Shown: positions 23,144 through 27,953 of the stretch, piece by piece
How the letters are laid out: each line of letters begins with the position of its first letter
How positions within the stretch are numbered: position 1 is the first letter of the stretch
From: a virus
Direction: 5' to 3' (one strand)
Length of the DNA stretch: 64,000 nucleotides
Virus record (IMG/VR): IMGVR_UViG_3300027747_000967
Span: 55,999-119,998 of that record
Made by a program: the position numbers and the translations under genes
The notes under the pieces: model-generated
Told to the model about the DNA's origin: nothing
What the model saw: only the letters and a program-made list of their open reading frames with translations
Databases searched by the model: none

Positions 23144-24649
23144 CTATTCAACTCTAAGATTTCTTCTTTCTAATTCAGTTAAAATTAACTCCAATTGTTG
23201 TTTTTCCTTTAACATTATTTTTTTTGCATCTTGCCTTTCTTTAAACATTTTTTCAATTAAACTTGGCATAAATCCTTTAATATCGGTTCTGAAGAATTGT
23301 CCATTTGGCGTTAATGTTGCATTAACCAATCTAGAAGTCTCTACCTGTTTCATTAATAAACCGTCAAGTGATATACCATCAGATAAAATCTTACGCATTT
23401 CATCAGTATAGTTTTCAGGTTCAATTAAAGTTTCGGGACTTATATTGTATTGCATCATTAAACTTGGATATAGTGATGTTAAATCAAACGAAACAATCCA
23501 ATCATGTTTGCCTACTTGAACTTCTTTGACATATGCACCCTCAAACATACCGTCTTTTTCTTTATGTTCTTTTGGTGGAACAATGATTTTCTTATCCAAC
23601 AAATACGAATATGTGAGAGCGTCCCACATTCTTGTTTGTGCAAAGACATCTTCAAAGTTTGATTTTGTGTCGTATGCTAGTGTTACTGCTAATTCTAATA
23701 ATTTTAATTTTTCTTCAAGTTTTAGAATCAACATTACGTCTTTAATGTTATACTCAATAAATTTTTGGAAGTTTAGACGATATAACGCATGAAGATTGTC
23801 ATACTCATCATAAGATATTTTACCTTCACCCAACTCAACTTGAGCGATAGCATCCAAACGATAAGATTCTTGTGACTTACCGCCAGGAGCATACCATTTA
23901 TACAACTCAATATAATCTAATGATGCAAGACCCATCAAACTATATTCAATTAATGTTTTACCATTTACAAGTGTTTTTTTGTCACGAATATAATTCCATG
24001 GTGATAGTTTTTTTGCTTCATCTTCACCGAGAATCTTACGAAAACGATTTACAAGATAAGGTATATCGAAGAACTTTGTATTCCATCCTGTGATAATGTC
24101 TGGACACTTTTTAGACCACATTGTAAGAAACTTTTTACATAAAGTATATTCATCTTTACATTGTAAATAAATTTCATCACCTTGTGCATAGTATTCACCA
24201 CATCCAAACACTACGGTTTCGCCATTAAGATACTTTACACAAATAGCAGTAATAGGTTCATTGGCTTCGTATGGGTCAGGAAATCCATTCTCTGAACCTA
24301 CCTCAATATCTATTACGCCTATGAGAACTCTATCAAAATCATAATCAACTAATTTAGGATGCTGGTCAGCAATAAAGGCATACTCATAACGAGTTTGGCC
24401 ATACATTACAGGTGCACCAGGAAGTCCATCAAATTGTTTAATGTAATCTCTTGCTTCACGAATGTCTTGAAATTGTTTTCTATCTAATGGAAGGCCAGTG
24501 AGTGACTTATAAATTCCTTGTGGATTTTTTCTAGAAGGCAAAAAAAGAGAAGGCGCATAAGCAATCTTCTCTTTTACTCTCTTACCATTTTCTATTCCTC
24601 GGTAAAGAATATTATTACCGAGGACTTCTACGCTTGTATAAAAATTCAA
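23144..24649 (-). CDS. 43: DNA polymerase gp43, N-terminal fragment
   Basis: A 501-residue fragment with the 3'-5' exonuclease domain and the start of the palm. The exonuclease motifs are GVIDIEVGSENGF (Exo I) and ITGWNTKFFDIPYL (Exo II). Polymerase motif A is FDLTSLYPSLMMQYN near residue 390. It ends at TELERRNLRVE, between motifs A and B. Alignment from memory with the T4 N-terminus puts the start here, where the codon is TTG. No in-frame ATG is near and CAGG lies upstream, so it seems to use a TTG start. Confidence 0.93.
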   Translation of the reverse strand: MNFYTSVEVLGNNILYRGIENGKRVKEKIAYAPSLFLPSRKNPQGIYKSLTGLPLDRKQFQDIREARDYIKQFDGLPGAPVMYGQTRYEYAFIADQHPKLVDYDFDRVLIGVIDIEVGSENGFPDPYEANEPITAICVKYLNGETVVFGCGEYYAQGDEIYLQCKDEYTLCKKFLTMWSKKCPDIITGWNTKFFDIPYLVNRFRKILGEDEAKKLSPWNYIRDKKTLVNGKTLIEYSLMGLASLDYIELYKWYAPGGKSQESYRLDAIAQVELGEGKISYDEYDNLHALYRLNFQKFIEYNIKDVMLILKLEEKLKLLELAVTLAYDTKSNFEDVFAQTRMWDALTYSYLLDKKIIVPPKEHKEKDGMFEGAYVKEVQVGKHDWIVSFDLTSLYPSLMMQYNISPETLIEPENYTDEMRKILSDGISLDGLLMKQVETSRLVNATLTPNGQFFRTDIKGFMPSLIEKMFKERQDAKKIMLKEKQQLELILTELERRNLRVE

Positions 24650-24651
24650 AA

Positions 24652-24960
24652 TTAACCTGTGATTAATTGTTTTGATGGAAGAACGATACCTGAACCAAAG
24701 ATTTGATTATAGTTATTTACAAAATCTTCTGCTGGTTCATAAGAGTATACTACATTCTTCTTAGCGATGGCAATAGTGGCACCTTTCTTTTGTGGTGCAT
24801 GAAGTGGAAATGGAGCAAAGCCAATGTTGGGTTGTCCGTCTTTACCACGAACTACAGCAATACCTACAGGGTTTGATAACACATATTCAGTTTCAGATTG
24901 TGATTCAATCTCACCTAAAACTTCTTCACCGTTAATTAATTTTAAGACTTGAATATTCAT
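24652..24960 (-). CDS. Small Sm-like conserved phage protein A
   Basis: A 102-residue protein starting MNIQVLKLINGEEVLGEIES. The pattern of short beta strands (VLKLINGEEVLGEI...EYVLSNPVGIAV) resembles an Sm-like barrel. A related protein (KILRLQSGEDIIGLVDIS) is encoded at 39041-39433. Both families are common small genes in marine T4-like phages. RNA or protein binding is a guess. It directly precedes gp43-N, three bases apart. Confidence 0.7.
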   Translation of the reverse strand: MNIQVLKLINGEEVLGEIESQSETEYVLSNPVGIAVVRGKDGQPNIGFAPFPLHAPQKKGATIAIAKKNVVYSYEPAEDFVNNYNQIFGSGIVLPSKQLITG

Positions 24961-24977
24961 AATTTTCCTTTGTTGAA

Positions 24978-25052
24978 TGGAGCGGATAGTCAGATTTGAA
25001 CTGACGACATTTTCGTTGGCAACGAAACATTCTACCCCTGAATTATACCCGC
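24978..25052 (-). tRNA. tRNA-Gly(GCC)
   Basis: A full cloverleaf on the minus strand: acceptor GCGGGTA with TATCCGC (one G-U), anticodon arm TTTCG-TTGCCAA-CGAAA with anticodon GCC, T-loop TTCAAAT, discriminator T and an encoded CCA. Length 75 with CCA. The tRNA lies just after an AT stem that closes the spacer upstream. Confidence 0.93.
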
Positions 25053-25055
25053 ATG

Positions 25056-25107
25056 ATACTATTATATAATACTTATGAACGATTGTAAAGCACTATATAA
25101 TAATATA
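25056..25107 (-). repeat. AT-rich stem closing the spacer at tRNA-Gly(GCC)
   Basis: Arms near 25058-25069 and 25094-25107 pair over about 12 bases. The one exception is a G-U on the minus-strand RNA and a C-A mismatch on the plus strand, which favours minus-strand transcription. The arm nearest the tRNA ends a few bases from its 5' end. The plus-strand version includes TATAAT (25096-25101), a possible -10 for the 25130 gene. Confidence 0.45.
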
Positions 25108-25129
25108 CCACATTAAAAAAGAGAACAAA

Positions 25130-25411
25130 ATGAAAAAAACTATACTCAGTTTGTTATTTGTACCTATATTATCTTTTTCTCAAATCTCAGCACAAAAACC
25201 AGTCGCTTGTTTTCCAATGGATTATTTACAAAAAGAATTAAAAAAAGGCGAAGAAACACCTTTATTAATTTCAAAAAATAAAATGACCAACGAATCTACA
25301 ATCATTGTATTCAAAAATGAAAAAAATGGAACATGGACTATTATTGAATTCAAAGATGATTTTGGATGTGTTTTAGGTTTTGGTGTTGATAAAACAGGAA
25401 AATCTATTTAA
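25130..25411 (+). CDS. Small exported protein, only plus-strand gene
   Basis: A 93-residue protein with a classic signal peptide: a KK start, hydrophobic TILSLLFVPILSFS and a likely cut after ISA (residue 21). The mature part has two Cys (CFP, FGCVLGFG) that could form a disulphide. I recall similar short secreted proteins (Cys-Phe/Tyr-Pro near the start, GCxLGxG near the end) in marine phages; none has a known role. AAAGAG lies upstream of the ATG. It sits inside the minus-strand tRNA island, so it needs its own promoter. A periplasmic function such as superinfection exclusion is only a guess. Confidence 0.8.
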   Translation: MKKTILSLLFVPILSFSQISAQKPVACFPMDYLQKELKKGEETPLLISKNKMTNESTIIVFKNEKNGTWTIIEFKDDFGCVLGFGVDKTGKSI

Positions 25412-25412
25412 T

Positions 25413-25486
25413 TGGTAGCGGGACCTGGATTTGCACCAAGAACTAAGGCTTATGAGGCCATTGTGATACTCTTTCACTATCCCGCA
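25413..25486 (-). tRNA. Unusual tRNA with CAT anticodon (Met or Ile2)
   Basis: A 74-base cloverleaf: acceptor TGCGGGA/TCCCGCT with positions 1 and 72 unpaired (T-T), D arm GTG/CAC, anticodon stem ATGGC/GCCTT with one T-T mismatch, loop CTCATAA (anticodon CAT), T-arm CTTGG-TGCAAAT-CCAGG, then A and an encoded CCA. The unpaired 1-72 and three G-C pairs next to the anticodon loop recall initiator tRNA, but a modified Ile(AUA) reader is also possible. The T-loop has G at 55 instead of T. Confidence 0.75.
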
Positions 25487-25496
25487 ATAGAAATTG

Positions 25497-25565
25497 TGGA
25501 GCGGTGTCTTTGAGTTGCACAAAGATAATTAAGAGGGAATCTCAATTTGTTCTCCAACCCACCGC
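25497..25565 (-). tRNA. Reduced tRNA-like gene, anticodon TCC (Gly)
   Basis: A 69-base element with acceptor GCGGTG/CACCGC and an encoded TCCA end, anticodon arm TTGAG-ATTCCCT-CTTAA (anticodon TCC) and T-arm CTTTG-TGCAACT-CAAAG. Only about 13 bases lie between acceptor and anticodon stem, enough for a mini D arm GTT-GGAG-AAC. The T-loop carries G at 55, as in the tRNA 10 bases away. It may be a working reduced tRNA or a decaying copy. Confidence 0.5.
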
Positions 25566-25573
25566 ATATTCTT

Positions 25574-25713
25574 AATTTAATGTTATCTGCTCGATTTAGG
25601 GGTCTGGTGCTTCCATCCCATAGCGAATAAGCAGTTATCTCAGGACCTATTCCTCGCCAGTTAGACCCGAATAGTTAATACGTCTATTAACGATACCTTG
25701 ATAACACTAAATT
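25574..25713 (-). ncRNA. Structured RNA closed by a 14-bp stem
   Basis: Minus-strand AATTTAGTGTTATC (5') and GATAACATTAAATT (3') pair over all 14 bases with one G-U. On the plus strand that pair would be A-C, so the RNA is read from the minus strand. Inside are GTTAATA-GACG-TATTAAC, GGGTCT with AGACCC, and GAATAGG with CTTATTC nested inside. It follows directly after the terminator of the small RNA at 25714-25797 and precedes the TCC tRNA-like gene by 8 bases. The family is unknown; T4 also has two small RNAs of unknown role in its tRNA cluster. Confidence 0.6.
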
Positions 25714-25738
25714 AAAAATCCCGCTTACCGTTTGCGGG
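25714..25738 (-). terminator. Intrinsic terminator of the small RNA
   Basis: Minus-strand stem CCCGC/GCGGG around a 9-base loop is followed by A and five T. This is a standard Rho-independent form and ends the RNA started at about 25797. Confidence 0.75.
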
Positions 25739-25797
25739 GTCATCATACCAGATTACTCGGTTCTATGACGGTCACAACTTGCTGTTTCTCAACAGTA
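25714..25797 (-). ncRNA. Small RNA with own sigma70 promoter and terminator
   Basis: A promoter at 25804-25832 predicts a start near 25797. The RNA opens with hairpin CTGTT-GAGA-AACAG (25782-25795, a GNRA loop), has a middle region with GTCAT/ATGAC pairing, and ends in CCCGC-loop-GCGGG followed by ATTTTT. Its length would be about 80 bases. There is no open frame of note. It is in the position of T4 RNA C and RNA D (tRNA cluster) but no sequence link is claimed. Confidence 0.65.
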
Positions 25798-25803
25798 GAT
25801 ACT

Positions 25804-25832
25804 AGTATAACATTATATATATCAAAAGTCAA
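25804..25832 (-). promoter_or_regulatory. Sigma70 promoter of the small RNA
   Basis: TTGACT, a 17-base spacer and TATACT are on the minus strand, each one base from consensus. The -35 overlaps the hairpin at 25824-25841, so an upstream terminator and this promoter share DNA. Confidence 0.75.
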
Positions 25833-25841
25833 GCGACTTTT
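25824..25841 (-). terminator. Hairpin after tRNA-Cys, overlapping a promoter
   Basis: AAAAGTC and GACTTTT pair around GCTT on the minus strand, 10 bases past the CCA of tRNA-Cys. The arms are A/T-ended and would work as a weak terminator in both directions. Confidence 0.5.
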
Positions 25842-25851
25842 TGGTATACTT

Positions 25852-25929
25852 TGGAGCAACGGGTCAGATTTGAACTGACGGCTTTACGGCTTTGCAGGCC
25901 GTTGCATTTGACCACTCTGCCACCGTTGC
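25852..25929 (-). tRNA. tRNA-Cys(GCA)
   Basis: Acceptor GCAACGG/CCGTTGC is perfect. The anticodon arm is ACGGC-CTGCAAA-GCCGT (anticodon GCA) and the T-loop TTCAAAT. Discriminator T and CCA are encoded. Length 78 with CCA. Confidence 0.92.
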
Positions 25930-25937
25930 ATAATGAA

Positions 25938-26045
25938 TTTGTAGTAGGCATGAACACAATCATATTAGTTTGCGCTTCGATATTTAACGCCACTTGCGTG
26001 GTTCCGCAACACCTTTTACATATCATCACGATAGTTACTACAAAA
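25938..26045 (-). ncRNA. Structured spacer between tRNA-Thr and tRNA-Cys
   Basis: TTTGTAGTA and TACTACAAA close the whole spacer with 9 perfect pairs, one base from the tRNA-Thr 3' end. Inside on the minus strand is CCAC-GCAA-GTGG, a GNRA hairpin, flanked by TTGCG and CGCAA. No supported reading frame lies here. It may guide tRNA processing or be an independent RNA. Confidence 0.45.
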
Positions 26046-26046
26046 C

Positions 26047-26122
26047 TGGTGCCCCATGTCCGACTCGAACAGACCACCTACTGATTACAAATCAGTTACT
26101 CTACCAGATGAGCTAATGGGGC
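26047..26122 (-). tRNA. tRNA-Thr(TGT)
   Basis: Perfect acceptor GCCCCAT/ATGGGGC, anticodon arm ACTGA-TTTGTAA-TCAGT (anticodon TGT), T-loop TTCGAGT, discriminator A and an encoded CCA. Length 76. Its first base directly follows the 16-bp inverted repeat at 26123-26178. Confidence 0.95.
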
Positions 26123-26178
26123 AATTGTATCCTATTATATACAATAACTCAAATTAATGCACATAATAGGATACAATT
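26123..26178 (-). repeat. Perfect 16-bp inverted repeat abutting tRNA-Thr
   Basis: AATTGTATCCTATTAT at 26123-26138 pairs perfectly with ATAATAGGATACAATT at 26163-26178, with 24 bases between. On the minus strand the 3' arm touches base 1 of tRNA-Thr. It overlaps the last 15 codons of the 54-residue gene. There is no U-tract on the minus strand, so an RNA-processing hairpin is more likely than a terminator. Confidence 0.65.
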
Positions 26179-26299
26179 TTTTAGATTTCTCTTTACGTCT
26201 TAAAGCTTTGTTACTTTTTTTATGACTACCCGCTTTACGAAACAATGCCAATTTGACAAGATAGTTTCGTTCTTTGGGAGTAGAATCTTTCTTTTTCAT
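26135..26299 (-). CDS. 54-residue basic phage protein
   Basis: A short frame with a near-perfect AAGGAG ribosome site 7 bases ahead of ATG 26299. The protein begins MKKKDSTPKERNYLVKLALF and continues with RKAGSHKKSNKALRRKEK. The KAG-x-H-x-KSNKALRRKEK pattern recurs in small proteins of T4-like phages as I recall them. The very high Lys/Arg content suggests binding to nucleic acid. The C-terminal 15 codons overlap the 16-bp inverted repeat. Lying in the tRNA island, it would be expressed with the tRNAs from the promoter at 26863. Confidence 0.75.
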   Translation of the reverse strand: MKKKDSTPKERNYLVKLALFRKAGSHKKSNKALRRKEKSKKLYPIMCINLSYCI

Positions 26300-26557
26300 C
26301 TTACTCTCCTTAAAATTAGGACGGGCTACTTCCTGTCATAGAAGCCCCCGATTGGAATTCATCGTTAGCCATATTCCCGATATGTAATGGCAAACATTGT
26401 CAATTAATAAGGGTAATGTGACAACCCACTTGCGTAAGCAGAGCAAGATAACCCCCGATTTAAAGCTCGGCAACTTATGACAACTGATTGGCCGGCCCCA
26501 CTCATGGGATACCATTTAATCTAGGCTTTCTTCGTGCTATATCCTAGAACCAAAACT
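26300..26557 (-). ncRNA. Multi-hairpin leader between tRNA-Asp and the 54-residue gene
   Basis: There are 258 bases without a frame, and at least six short stems can be drawn on the minus strand: TCTAGG/CCTAGA, CCCA-TGAG-TGGG, CCGA/TCGG, CTTGC/GCAAG, TTGTCA/TGACAA and GCCAT/ATGGC, then GGGCT/AGCCC just ahead of the ribosome site. It may be a long structured leader or a separate RNA. It has no similarity to a riboswitch class I know. Confidence 0.4.
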
Positions 26558-26634
26558 TGGCGGTCTGTATCGGACTTGAACCGATGGTCTCCTCCGTGAC
26601 AGGGAGGCGATTTAACCAACTAATCTAACAAACC
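26558..26634 (-). tRNA. tRNA-Asp(GTC)
   Basis: Acceptor GGTTTGT/ACAGACC (one G-U), anticodon arm CCTCC-CTGTCAC-GGAGG (anticodon GTC), T-loop TTCAAGT, discriminator G with encoded CCA. Length 77. Confidence 0.95.
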
Positions 26635-26729
26635 ATATTGAAGCACACTATTGAGATTCCACTTTTCAAGTCAGGGTCCGGATGACCAAGCGCCGCTTCT
26701 CGCAGGTAGGGAATAATGTGCTTCAATAT
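26635..26729 (-). ncRNA. Cloverleaf-like RNA filling the Asp-Glu spacer
   Basis: The whole spacer is closed by an 18-bp stem (26635-26652 with 26712-26729). Its one irregular pair is G-U on the minus strand. Inside are three small hairpins in a row on the minus strand: AAGC-GGC-GCTT, GGTC-ATCCG-GACC and ACTT-GAA-AAGT, giving a four-way shape. The ends touch both tRNAs. There is no anticodon-like loop or CCA. Function unknown. Confidence 0.5.
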
Positions 26730-26803
26730 GGCGCTCGGTACCAGATTCGAACTGGTGTGACCGCCGTGAAAGGGCGATATCCTAACCGCTAGATGAACCG
26801 AGC
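26729..26803 (-). tRNA. tRNA-Glu(TTC)
   Basis: Acceptor GCTCGGT/ACCGAGC, anticodon arm TCGCC-CTTTCAC-GGCGG (anticodon TTC), T-loop TTCGAAT, discriminator G with encoded CCA. Length 75. It is the first tRNA behind the promoter at 26863-26890. Confidence 0.95.
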
Positions 26804-26862
26804 ATATTTACAACATTTACAACATGAATTTTTAAAGAACAGTTATTACTTAATATACAACC

Positions 26863-26890
26863 ATTATACATGAACCACCGAATAAGTCAA
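26863..26890 (-). promoter_or_regulatory. Sigma70 promoter of the tRNA island
   Basis: TTGACT, a 16-base spacer and a perfect TATAAT lie about 60 bases before tRNA-Glu on the minus strand. It is the likely start of the tRNA transcript using unmodified host polymerase. Confidence 0.8.
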
Positions 26891-26926
26891 TCATTATTTT
26901 ACTACTGTTGTTTTTTTACTACAGAT

Positions 26927-26946
26927 GTGTTGTATTTCTACAACAC
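26927..26946 (-). terminator. GNRA hairpin right after the protease gene
   Basis: GTGTTGTA-GAAA-TACAACAC is a perfect 8-bp hairpin directly following the TAA of the 26947 gene. There is no U-tract. A shortened relative of the surrounding sequence follows the SpeD-like gene at 27578-27602. Confidence 0.5.
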
Positions 26947-27459
26947 TTATTGATATTGTTTCCAACCAATAGGTTCTTCCTCTATTGGGTCATCTGGATT
27001 ACAAATGCCTTCAAATACTTCCCATAATTTTTCTTGAACTACAAATTTACGAAATAAACCACCTTCCATTCCGTATGCTTCTATTTCCCAAGGTTGACTC
27101 CAATAATCCAAATCTTCTGCTACATGAGCACCTTTCCAACGAGTTAGGTTATCATTGGTTTCACTATAAGCGTATTGTTTAATGTGAACCATCTCATGGC
27201 CTAAAGATTTAAGAATATTTCTTCCACCAATCTTTGGATTCATTTCAATCAAAAAGTTTCTGGCTTTACCTAAATCTGTTCTTTCTTCAACGGAAGCATA
27301 TCCATAAACATCATCAATCTTTTTATTAAAGATAACTTTGATACAGATATTTTCCAACATTTTTGCGGTAAGTAATTCTTGCGCATAGAATAAAATAGCC
27401 CTTTTGACATAAGGACGGAATCGCTCTTTATCGGGACAACCAACTATACTTAACTTCAT
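26947..27459 (-). CDS. SprT-like putative zinc metalloprotease
   Basis: A 170-residue protein with LGHEMVHIKQY near residue 87 (the HExxH zinc site) and a downstream Glu in WEIEAYGME as the probable third ligand. The size and layout resemble SprT-like domains. The gene has an AAGGAGAG ribosome site and a consensus promoter (27537-27565), so expression is probably early. Its target is unknown; cleaving a host protein or DNA-protein crosslinks are options. Confidence 0.75.
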   Translation of the reverse strand: MKLSIVGCPDKERFRPYVKRAILFYAQELLTAKMLENICIKVIFNKKIDDVYGYASVEERTDLGKARNFLIEMNPKIGGRNILKSLGHEMVHIKQYAYSETNDNLTRWKGAHVAEDLDYWSQPWEIEAYGMEGGLFRKFVVQEKLWEVFEGICNPDDPIEEEPIGWKQYQ

Positions 27460-27599: not shown

Positions 27600-27953
27600 T
27601 TATGCTTGACGCCTGAAAAATCTTTGTTTGATATTTTTTGGTTTGAAATGTTCTTCAATTGATTTGACCACTTTTGTTTCATCAAAATCTTTGCAACTAA
27701 AGATATCCATATAAAGGTCACCATTAATATCTAAAAAGTGACCCATAATATTAGAAGTTTCAATAAGTTGTGATACTGTCCATCCTGCTTTATCTGTTCC
27801 ATCAGCAAAATGAACAAGTTGTGGTTCACCATAAGGAACCATTTCAATTAAACGAACTAAATCTTTAGTGAAGTGTGTAATGTATTCTGGATCCGTTGCT
27901 CTTTGAATTTCGCAACCCTTTATATCTAACATTAAATGGTAACCCCAATACAT
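27600..27953 (-). CDS. SpeD-like (S-adenosylmethionine decarboxylase family) protein
   Basis: A 117-residue protein of about the length of bacterial SpeD. It begins MYWGYHLMLDIKGCE, and ends with GHFLDINGDLYMDIFSCKDFD, parallel to the VDxFTCGD end of SpeD. The self-cleaving ESH site of true SpeD is not present; the aligned stretch reads IETSNIMGHF. So pyruvoyl-dependent decarboxylation is doubtful. AAGGAG lies upstream of the ATG. I recall the same variant in other marine T4-like phages. A role in polyamine or SAM metabolism is inferred from family only. Confidence 0.65.
   Translation of the reverse strand: MYWGYHLMLDIKGCEIQRATDPEYITHFTKDLVRLIEMVPYGEPQLVHFADGTDKAGWTVSQLIETSNIMGHFLDINGDLYMDIFSCKDFDETKVVKSIEEHFKPKNIKQRFFRRQA

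Follow-up and report, generated by a model that had tools for sequence, protein, structure and literature searches.

An array of six tRNA genes (Glu, Asp, Thr, Cys, Met and Gly, as predicted by ARAGORN) lies on the minus strand at positions 24978-26803 of the window, a stretch of 64,000 nucleotides that forms the last 64 kb of a 120-kb record of an uncultured virus of bacteria (IMG/VR record IMGVR_UViG_3300027747_000967). A reading of the sequence alone (hereafter the sequence-only reading) had noted five spacers in this array, here called S1 to S5, whose ends pair, and had suggested either a common system for excising the tRNAs or that such spacers might be RNAs in their own right. By covariation and comparison with relatives, we showed that two of them, S5 and S2, each belong to a family of their own, made up of stem-closed modules that lie in phage tRNA arrays on the strand encoding the tRNAs. 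As the comparisons further showed, these modules often start at the base after the CCA of a tRNA, with the CCA forming part of the closing stem, and selection acts on the closing helix to keep it paired in single-stranded nucleic acid from the tRNA strand. The five stems are different things and not one class. The record has a T4-type portal protein, and cyanophages, at about 54%, were the best cultured matches.

For each spacer, the longest gapless stem on the minus strand (G-U pairs allowed) was compared with those of dinucleotide shuffles of the same spacer. All five stems were present; those of S1, S2, S4 and S5 exceeded the shuffles, whereas that of S3 was within chance. The minus strand folded better than the plus strand for every spacer (minus versus plus, in kcal/mol: S5, -30.6 and -26.0; S2 stem, -35.5 and -27.1; S1, -17.0 and -5.4; S4 core, -27.6 and -17.0; S3, -26.1 and -19.3). 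The stems were ruled out as intrinsic terminators (a G+C-rich stem followed by a T run): two terminator-like sites were found in 24900-27000, neither of them at S1-S5.

The S5 family of hairpins at tRNA ends

The S5 unit (26633-26731, minus strand) is a hairpin placed directly after the CCA of tRNA-Glu(ttc) (26729-26803). The spacer between this gene and tRNA-Asp(gtc) (26558-26634; acceptor stem starting at G26633 by eye) consists of a single hairpin, the 5' arm of which begins right after the encoded CCA. Its core stem of 17 bp (arms 26712-26728 and 26636-26652) was reached in none of 300 shuffles. The earlier observation that stems touch the ends of tRNAs can be extended here, in that the CCA of tRNA-Glu (26729-26731) can pair with the UGG (26633-26635) at the start of tRNA-Asp.

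Relatives that share these Glu and Asp genes carried either S5 or, between the same arms, a very different loop of another length. The family is marked by a single conserved helix that closes each unit, CCA-UAUUGAAGCACAUU / AGUGUGCUUCAAUA-UGG, and its loops are highly diverse; the flanking pairs vary, some units having CCA/UGG and others UUA/UAA, CUA/UAG etc. A two-arm pattern matched at least 119 stretches in IMG/VR, and 66 of 124 matches in the loci fetched then lay within 300 nt of a tRNA. We also employed one-arm baits, so that pairing was not selected for. With the 3'-arm bait, 98 of 103 distinct contexts contained a 5' arm with at least 15 of the 17 positions paired, and 95 of these 98 were in tRNA-bearing loci. 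An independent 5'-arm bait gave a matching arm in 128 of 134 contexts over all loci and in 72 of 78 in newly fetched loci, where 71 of the 72 paired contexts had tRNAs on the same strand. A narrower two-arm pattern had no match in genome_contigs (84,980 bacterial and archaeal species).

After removal of overlaps, 357 units were placed; exclusion of 33 without a tRNA within 1500 nt and of 91 exact duplicates left 233 distinct units near tRNAs, all in uncultured phage contigs and co-oriented with the tRNAs. Contigs carrying either of the two families reach about 345 kb. Ninety-three of the 233 units start directly after the CCA of a tRNA. Seen from the tRNA side, 85 of 1294 distinct tRNA contexts were directly followed by a unit, among them 21 of 58 for tRNA-Lys(UUU) and 21 of 69 for tRNA-Glu(UUC), compared with none of 110 for Met, 56 for Asp and 56 for Arg(UCU); shared descent may inflate the preference for Lys(UUU) and Glu(UUC).

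The covariation in relatives that had been set beforehand as a test was found for S5, including positions outside the search criteria. At position 14, the arms paired in 189 of the 233 units, versus 103.9 after re-pairing of arms, and A-U, G-C, C-G, G-U and U-A pairs were all frequent. For position 14 and for each of the flanking positions -1 to -5, none of 1000 re-pairings reached the observed value. Pairing was also biased to one strand. With the 14-nt core arm numbered from 0, 176 units have U.G at position 12 on the tRNA strand and none has the reverse; overall, G-U outnumbered A-C on the tRNA strand by 295 to 50, and by 119 to 50 with position 12 left out. The search did not create this bias, since a place qualified when either of its strands passed. 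The sequence-only reading had described the odd pair in such stems as G-U on the minus strand; this held for S5 and S2, whereas S1 has several G-U pairs instead of one.

The loops of the 233 units fell into 161 clusters with a median length of 58 nt. We found loops kept at changed sites (loop identity of at least 75%, both flanks below 65%) in 67 of 127 within-cluster pairs and in 23 of 39 clusters with more than one member, and some loops were 75-100% identical at unrelated sites. Conversely, the site was kept and the loop changed in 11 pairs (at least 27 of 30 nt identical in both 30-nt flanks, loops below 55%), such that one slot carries unrelated loops in near-identical phages. One locus (L171) contains three stem-closed units in succession, each with a different loop. 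These comparisons showed that loop and site are separable, that is, S5-type modules have a cassette-like history. Homing endonucleases were rejected as the general mover: GIY-YIG genes were present in 7 and HNH_3 genes in 8 of 28 records, none of them in the genome of the window.

One loop family with seven members carries a T-arm with compensatory changes inside the loop. The T-arm signature GGTTCGA was found in 16 of 161 loop representatives (0.6 expected), and T-arm-like hairpins in 9 of 146 loops (0.9 in shuffled loops and 1 on the opposite strand). Present in only about one-tenth of the loops, T-arm content was rejected as a general origin of loops.

The S2 family of predicted structured RNAs

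The S2 unit (25568-25719, minus strand) is a predicted structured RNA of about 150 nt. Its 20-bp closing stem (5' arm 25700-25719, 3' arm 25568-25587) was reached in none of 60 shuffles, and an inner hairpin surrounds a conserved GACG loop. In one relative (L043), S2 lies in another tRNA context; in another (L009), a different closed insert occupies the same place.

A core pattern without the closing arms matched at least 120 viral stretches. Among the matches listed, 102 were distinct and 99 of these viral; a closing stem was present in 96 of the 99 (17-25 bp in 94, 10-11 bp in 2), and the remaining 3 lie at contig ends, so that 94 of 96 untruncated copies have 17-25 bp. Again among the matches listed, 93 of the 96 stem-bearing copies were in tRNA loci, and 40 have a stem that overlaps the upstream tRNA at its end. 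In cellular genomes, the core pattern gave 3 matches, all without the stem, a number estimated to be that of chance. Two S2-type copies are free-standing, located between genes without a tRNA in the stretches read.

Two-sided changes were seen in 15 of 47 pairs with six homologues and in 31 of 47 with eight. We then aligned relatives with R1, a covariance model of the S2 family, which matched the window at 25560-25729 with 186.8 bits and matched 94 places over 95 sources. In 80 distinct rows, 95.7% of cells were paired (67.9% after shuffling) and 39 of the 47 pairs, including all 19 closing pairs, showed two-sided changes, with 972 two-sided-change cells versus 310.5 in shuffled alignments. 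Thus, the covariation set as a test was present for S2 as well. For S2 and S5, covariation, strand-locked G-U pairs and wide conservation favour the suggestion that the spacers are RNAs in their own right; for S1, the covariation test went against it, and S3 is within chance (see below). The exact junction with the CCA fits the other suggestion, a common system for excising the tRNAs.

Downstream of S2 and before tRNA-Met lies the Q element (25501-25565, minus strand), a conserved, putative structured RNA of the form GCGGUG...CACCGC with two-sided changes in 5 of 20 pairs among 9 sequences. Upstream of S2, element P (25780-25822, minus strand) is kept in L004, L052, L074 and L064, and a promoter-like site (25804-25832) is close to it. 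The tRNA arrays of some S2-bearing phages (L329, L346, L353 and L396) contain tmRNA-type genes (permuted or standard models).

The remaining spacers and neighbouring genes

S1 (25056-25107, minus strand) is an AT-rich palindrome upstream of tRNA-Gly. Its longest stem, 19 bp, was reached in none of 300 shuffles, but relatives keep the sigma-70-type arrangement TTKACA-17-TATAAT and not the stem. In the window, TTTACA (25084-25089) and TATAAT (25061-25066) are separated by 17 nt and match the consensus hexamers TTGACA and TATAAT (spacing 16-18 nt) at 11 of 12 positions. The paired cells amounted to 60.1% (57.6% shuffled), and the covariation score was reached by 23 of 500 shuffles. We therefore rejected S1 as a conserved stem; by sequence conservation, it is a promoter. 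As S1 is above chance in one genome yet fails in relatives, a stem above chance in one genome is not enough.

S4 (26123-26178, minus strand) is a palindrome that runs up to the 5' end of tRNA-Thr. Its 21-bp stem, with a perfect 16-bp core, was reached in none of 300 shuffles. The 3' arm holds TATAAT, and a second phage (L075, at a contig start, before another tRNA) shares only that part, a -10-like stretch; S4 may contain a promoter. S3 (25938-26045, minus strand) has a weak 9-bp closing stem. Its longest stem was a different one of 11 bp, a length reached by 20 of 200 shuffles, so S3 is not above chance; no convincing homologue was found among the relatives compared. In other spacers without an S5-type arm, stems of at least 14 bp occurred in 14 of 317 (none shuffled), with a weak bias of G-U over A-C (147 versus 103). 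Because this bias is weak, we make no RNA claim for these spacers as a class.

The spacer between tRNA-Thr and tRNA-Asp contains a further conserved piece (26316-26368, minus strand), 92% identical in L074 next to a different tRNA, with changes that look compensatory by eye. A 93-amino-acid open reading frame (ORF) at 25130-25411 (plus strand) lies within the minus-strand array, between tRNA-Gly and tRNA-Met; its start looks like a signal peptide by eye, and it had no Pfam match. Beside the array, a 501-amino-acid ORF for a family B DNA polymerase (23144-24649, minus strand) ends inside the polymerase domain (profile positions 23-147 of 453), and the gene therefore looks split. A phage-encoded S-adenosylmethionine decarboxylase is found at 27600-27953 (minus strand).

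Relation to known RNAs and interpretation

No Rfam 15 family reached its gathering score over S2 or S5; a search of the window (E of at most 5) returned tRNAs and weak chance matches. Among the Rfam 15 matches listed for sets of 12, 7 and 8 relatives, there was likewise no S2 or S5 family. None of 50,697 cultured phage records was matched in BLAST by any of seven single-unit queries; with the whole array as the query, the matches listed (40 of 96) were only short pieces, amounting to about 3% of it, most of them at annotated tRNAs. We found no prior description of either family in the literature covered, which excluded subscription journals and preprints.

Stable RNAs beside the tRNA genes of T4 have been known for decades. 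Like S2 and S5, RNAC and RNAD of T4 (species 1 and 2 RNA) are small RNAs next to tRNA genes of the same strand. The start of RNAD adjoins tRNA-Arg. By position, RNAC and RNAD are the nearest known likeness, together with GOLLD and ROOL near tRNA islands; RNAC carries a GGTTCGAATCC hairpin, as do some S5-type loops. By fold, however, the T4 RNAs have no long end-to-end closing helix. R1, as the model of S2, had no match over the T4 region (L303); S5 arms were outside this model comparison. The role of RNAC and RNAD is described as unknown (PMC3014915), and GOLLD and ROOL are described as structured RNAs of phages and prophages, found near tRNA islands and unknown in function (PMC12286853). Unlike S2 and S5, GOLLD and ROOL are hundreds of nucleotides long and belong to different families. 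In one array, a GOLLD RNA (L386:8336-8801) accompanies an S2-type RNA at a separate place.

Bacterial Y RNA (YrlA) combines tRNA-like parts with a long closing helix. An identity with Y RNA and its Ro ribonucleoprotein was rejected: YrlA (RF02553) had no match in the window, and a Ro-type TROVE protein was found in only 1 of the 28 records searched. That protein (G006:C1:74860-75837) is in a record with an S5-type arm, and a weak YrlA-like match lies in another phage (L270:5504-5605). No family known or found here combines freely exchanged loops with a constant helix placed at the CCA ends of tRNAs, although the niche itself, phage tRNA arrays, also houses known RNAs.

Several explanations of the two families were weighed. 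Processing or insulating stems, with the helix as a cleavage site (e.g. for RNase III) or as an insulator separating tRNAs and the loop as a passenger, would account for the exact junction with the tRNA 3' end in 93 of 233 units, for a helix far more conserved than the loops and for long double-stranded RNA with G-U pairs. Near-identical loops at unrelated sites, T-arm covariation within one loop family and an S2 core conserved in about 100 copies, some of them without tRNAs, argue against mere passengers; moreover, most tRNA neighbours need no such stem, as the 85 of 1294 contexts indicate. We regard this explanation as rather unlikely. Integron attC sites have conserved ends and a variable loop and permit exchange of cassettes. 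By a similar logic, the arms might be DNA recombination sites, acting as folded single-stranded DNA or as terminal repeats, and the conserved ends, variable middle and cassette swaps at fixed boundaries fit this. S5-type ends differ from attC in sequence by eye, however, and their orientation is locked to the tRNA strand (176 versus 0); covariation extends into the flanks outside the arms, a feature that a site in double-stranded DNA would not require, and no homing-endonuclease gene was common to the 28 records, in which no search was aimed at recombinases or integrases. Recombination sites are thus improbable.

The T-arm signatures and hairpins described above would suit decayed tRNA genes whose acceptor stems turned into the closing helix. 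About nine-tenths of the loops lack the signature, the helix exceeds an acceptor stem in length and S2 has no tRNA-like fold, which makes such an origin quite improbable. Chance or promoter palindromes without RNA function describe S1 and perhaps S3 and S4; covariation excludes them for S5 and S2, and as a general explanation they are hardly credible.

We favour stem-closed RNA cassettes matured with the tRNAs, with a probability of roughly 0.6. The modules would be transcribed together with the tRNAs and released during tRNA maturation, by RNase P at the 5' end of the next tRNA and an endonuclease at the CCA side, yielding a small hairpin RNA protected by its own stem. The conserved helix of S5-type modules would then serve a nuclease or protein as a shared handle, with the working part, the loop, varying between units; in S2-type modules, the working part would be the conserved core. 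We infer that the modules are transcribed, released and functional RNAs. Several points weigh against this interpretation. The modules are known from their sequences, and since single-stranded DNA tolerates G.T pairs too, some probability remains for a function as a DNA hairpin. Fifty A-C cells remain in S5-type units, 32 of them at position 4. The unit searches required consensus-like arms, and conservation inside the arms is partly due to this selection; the S2 alignment was fitted to structure by the covariance model. Copies are related by descent, and the counts are not independent events. With 122 singletons among the 161 loop clusters, loop function is indicated for few.

The two families point to an RNA-based function in phage infection, and our best guess is that S2 and S5 are exchangeable phage RNA effectors matured with tRNAs. 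Most speculatively, the loops may act on host targets as decoys or regulators, which would explain their turnover. Tentatively, tRNA arrays might then hold an exchangeable library of stem-anchored effector RNAs (S5 type, with hundreds of loops; S2 type, of about 150 nt) that are released at tRNA ends in maturation and used against the host, for instance as decoys for tRNA-targeting defences. If so, the strong preference for sites after tRNA-Lys(UUU) and tRNA-Glu(UUC) would hint at the target. Uncultured phages contain two large covarying families whose boundaries are clear and whose link to the CCA ends of tRNAs is precise; they give testable handles: a fixed helix, swappable loops and a covariance model for finding hosts. 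If the loops are effectors, phage tRNA arrays would also be arrays of RNA weapons or counter-defences.

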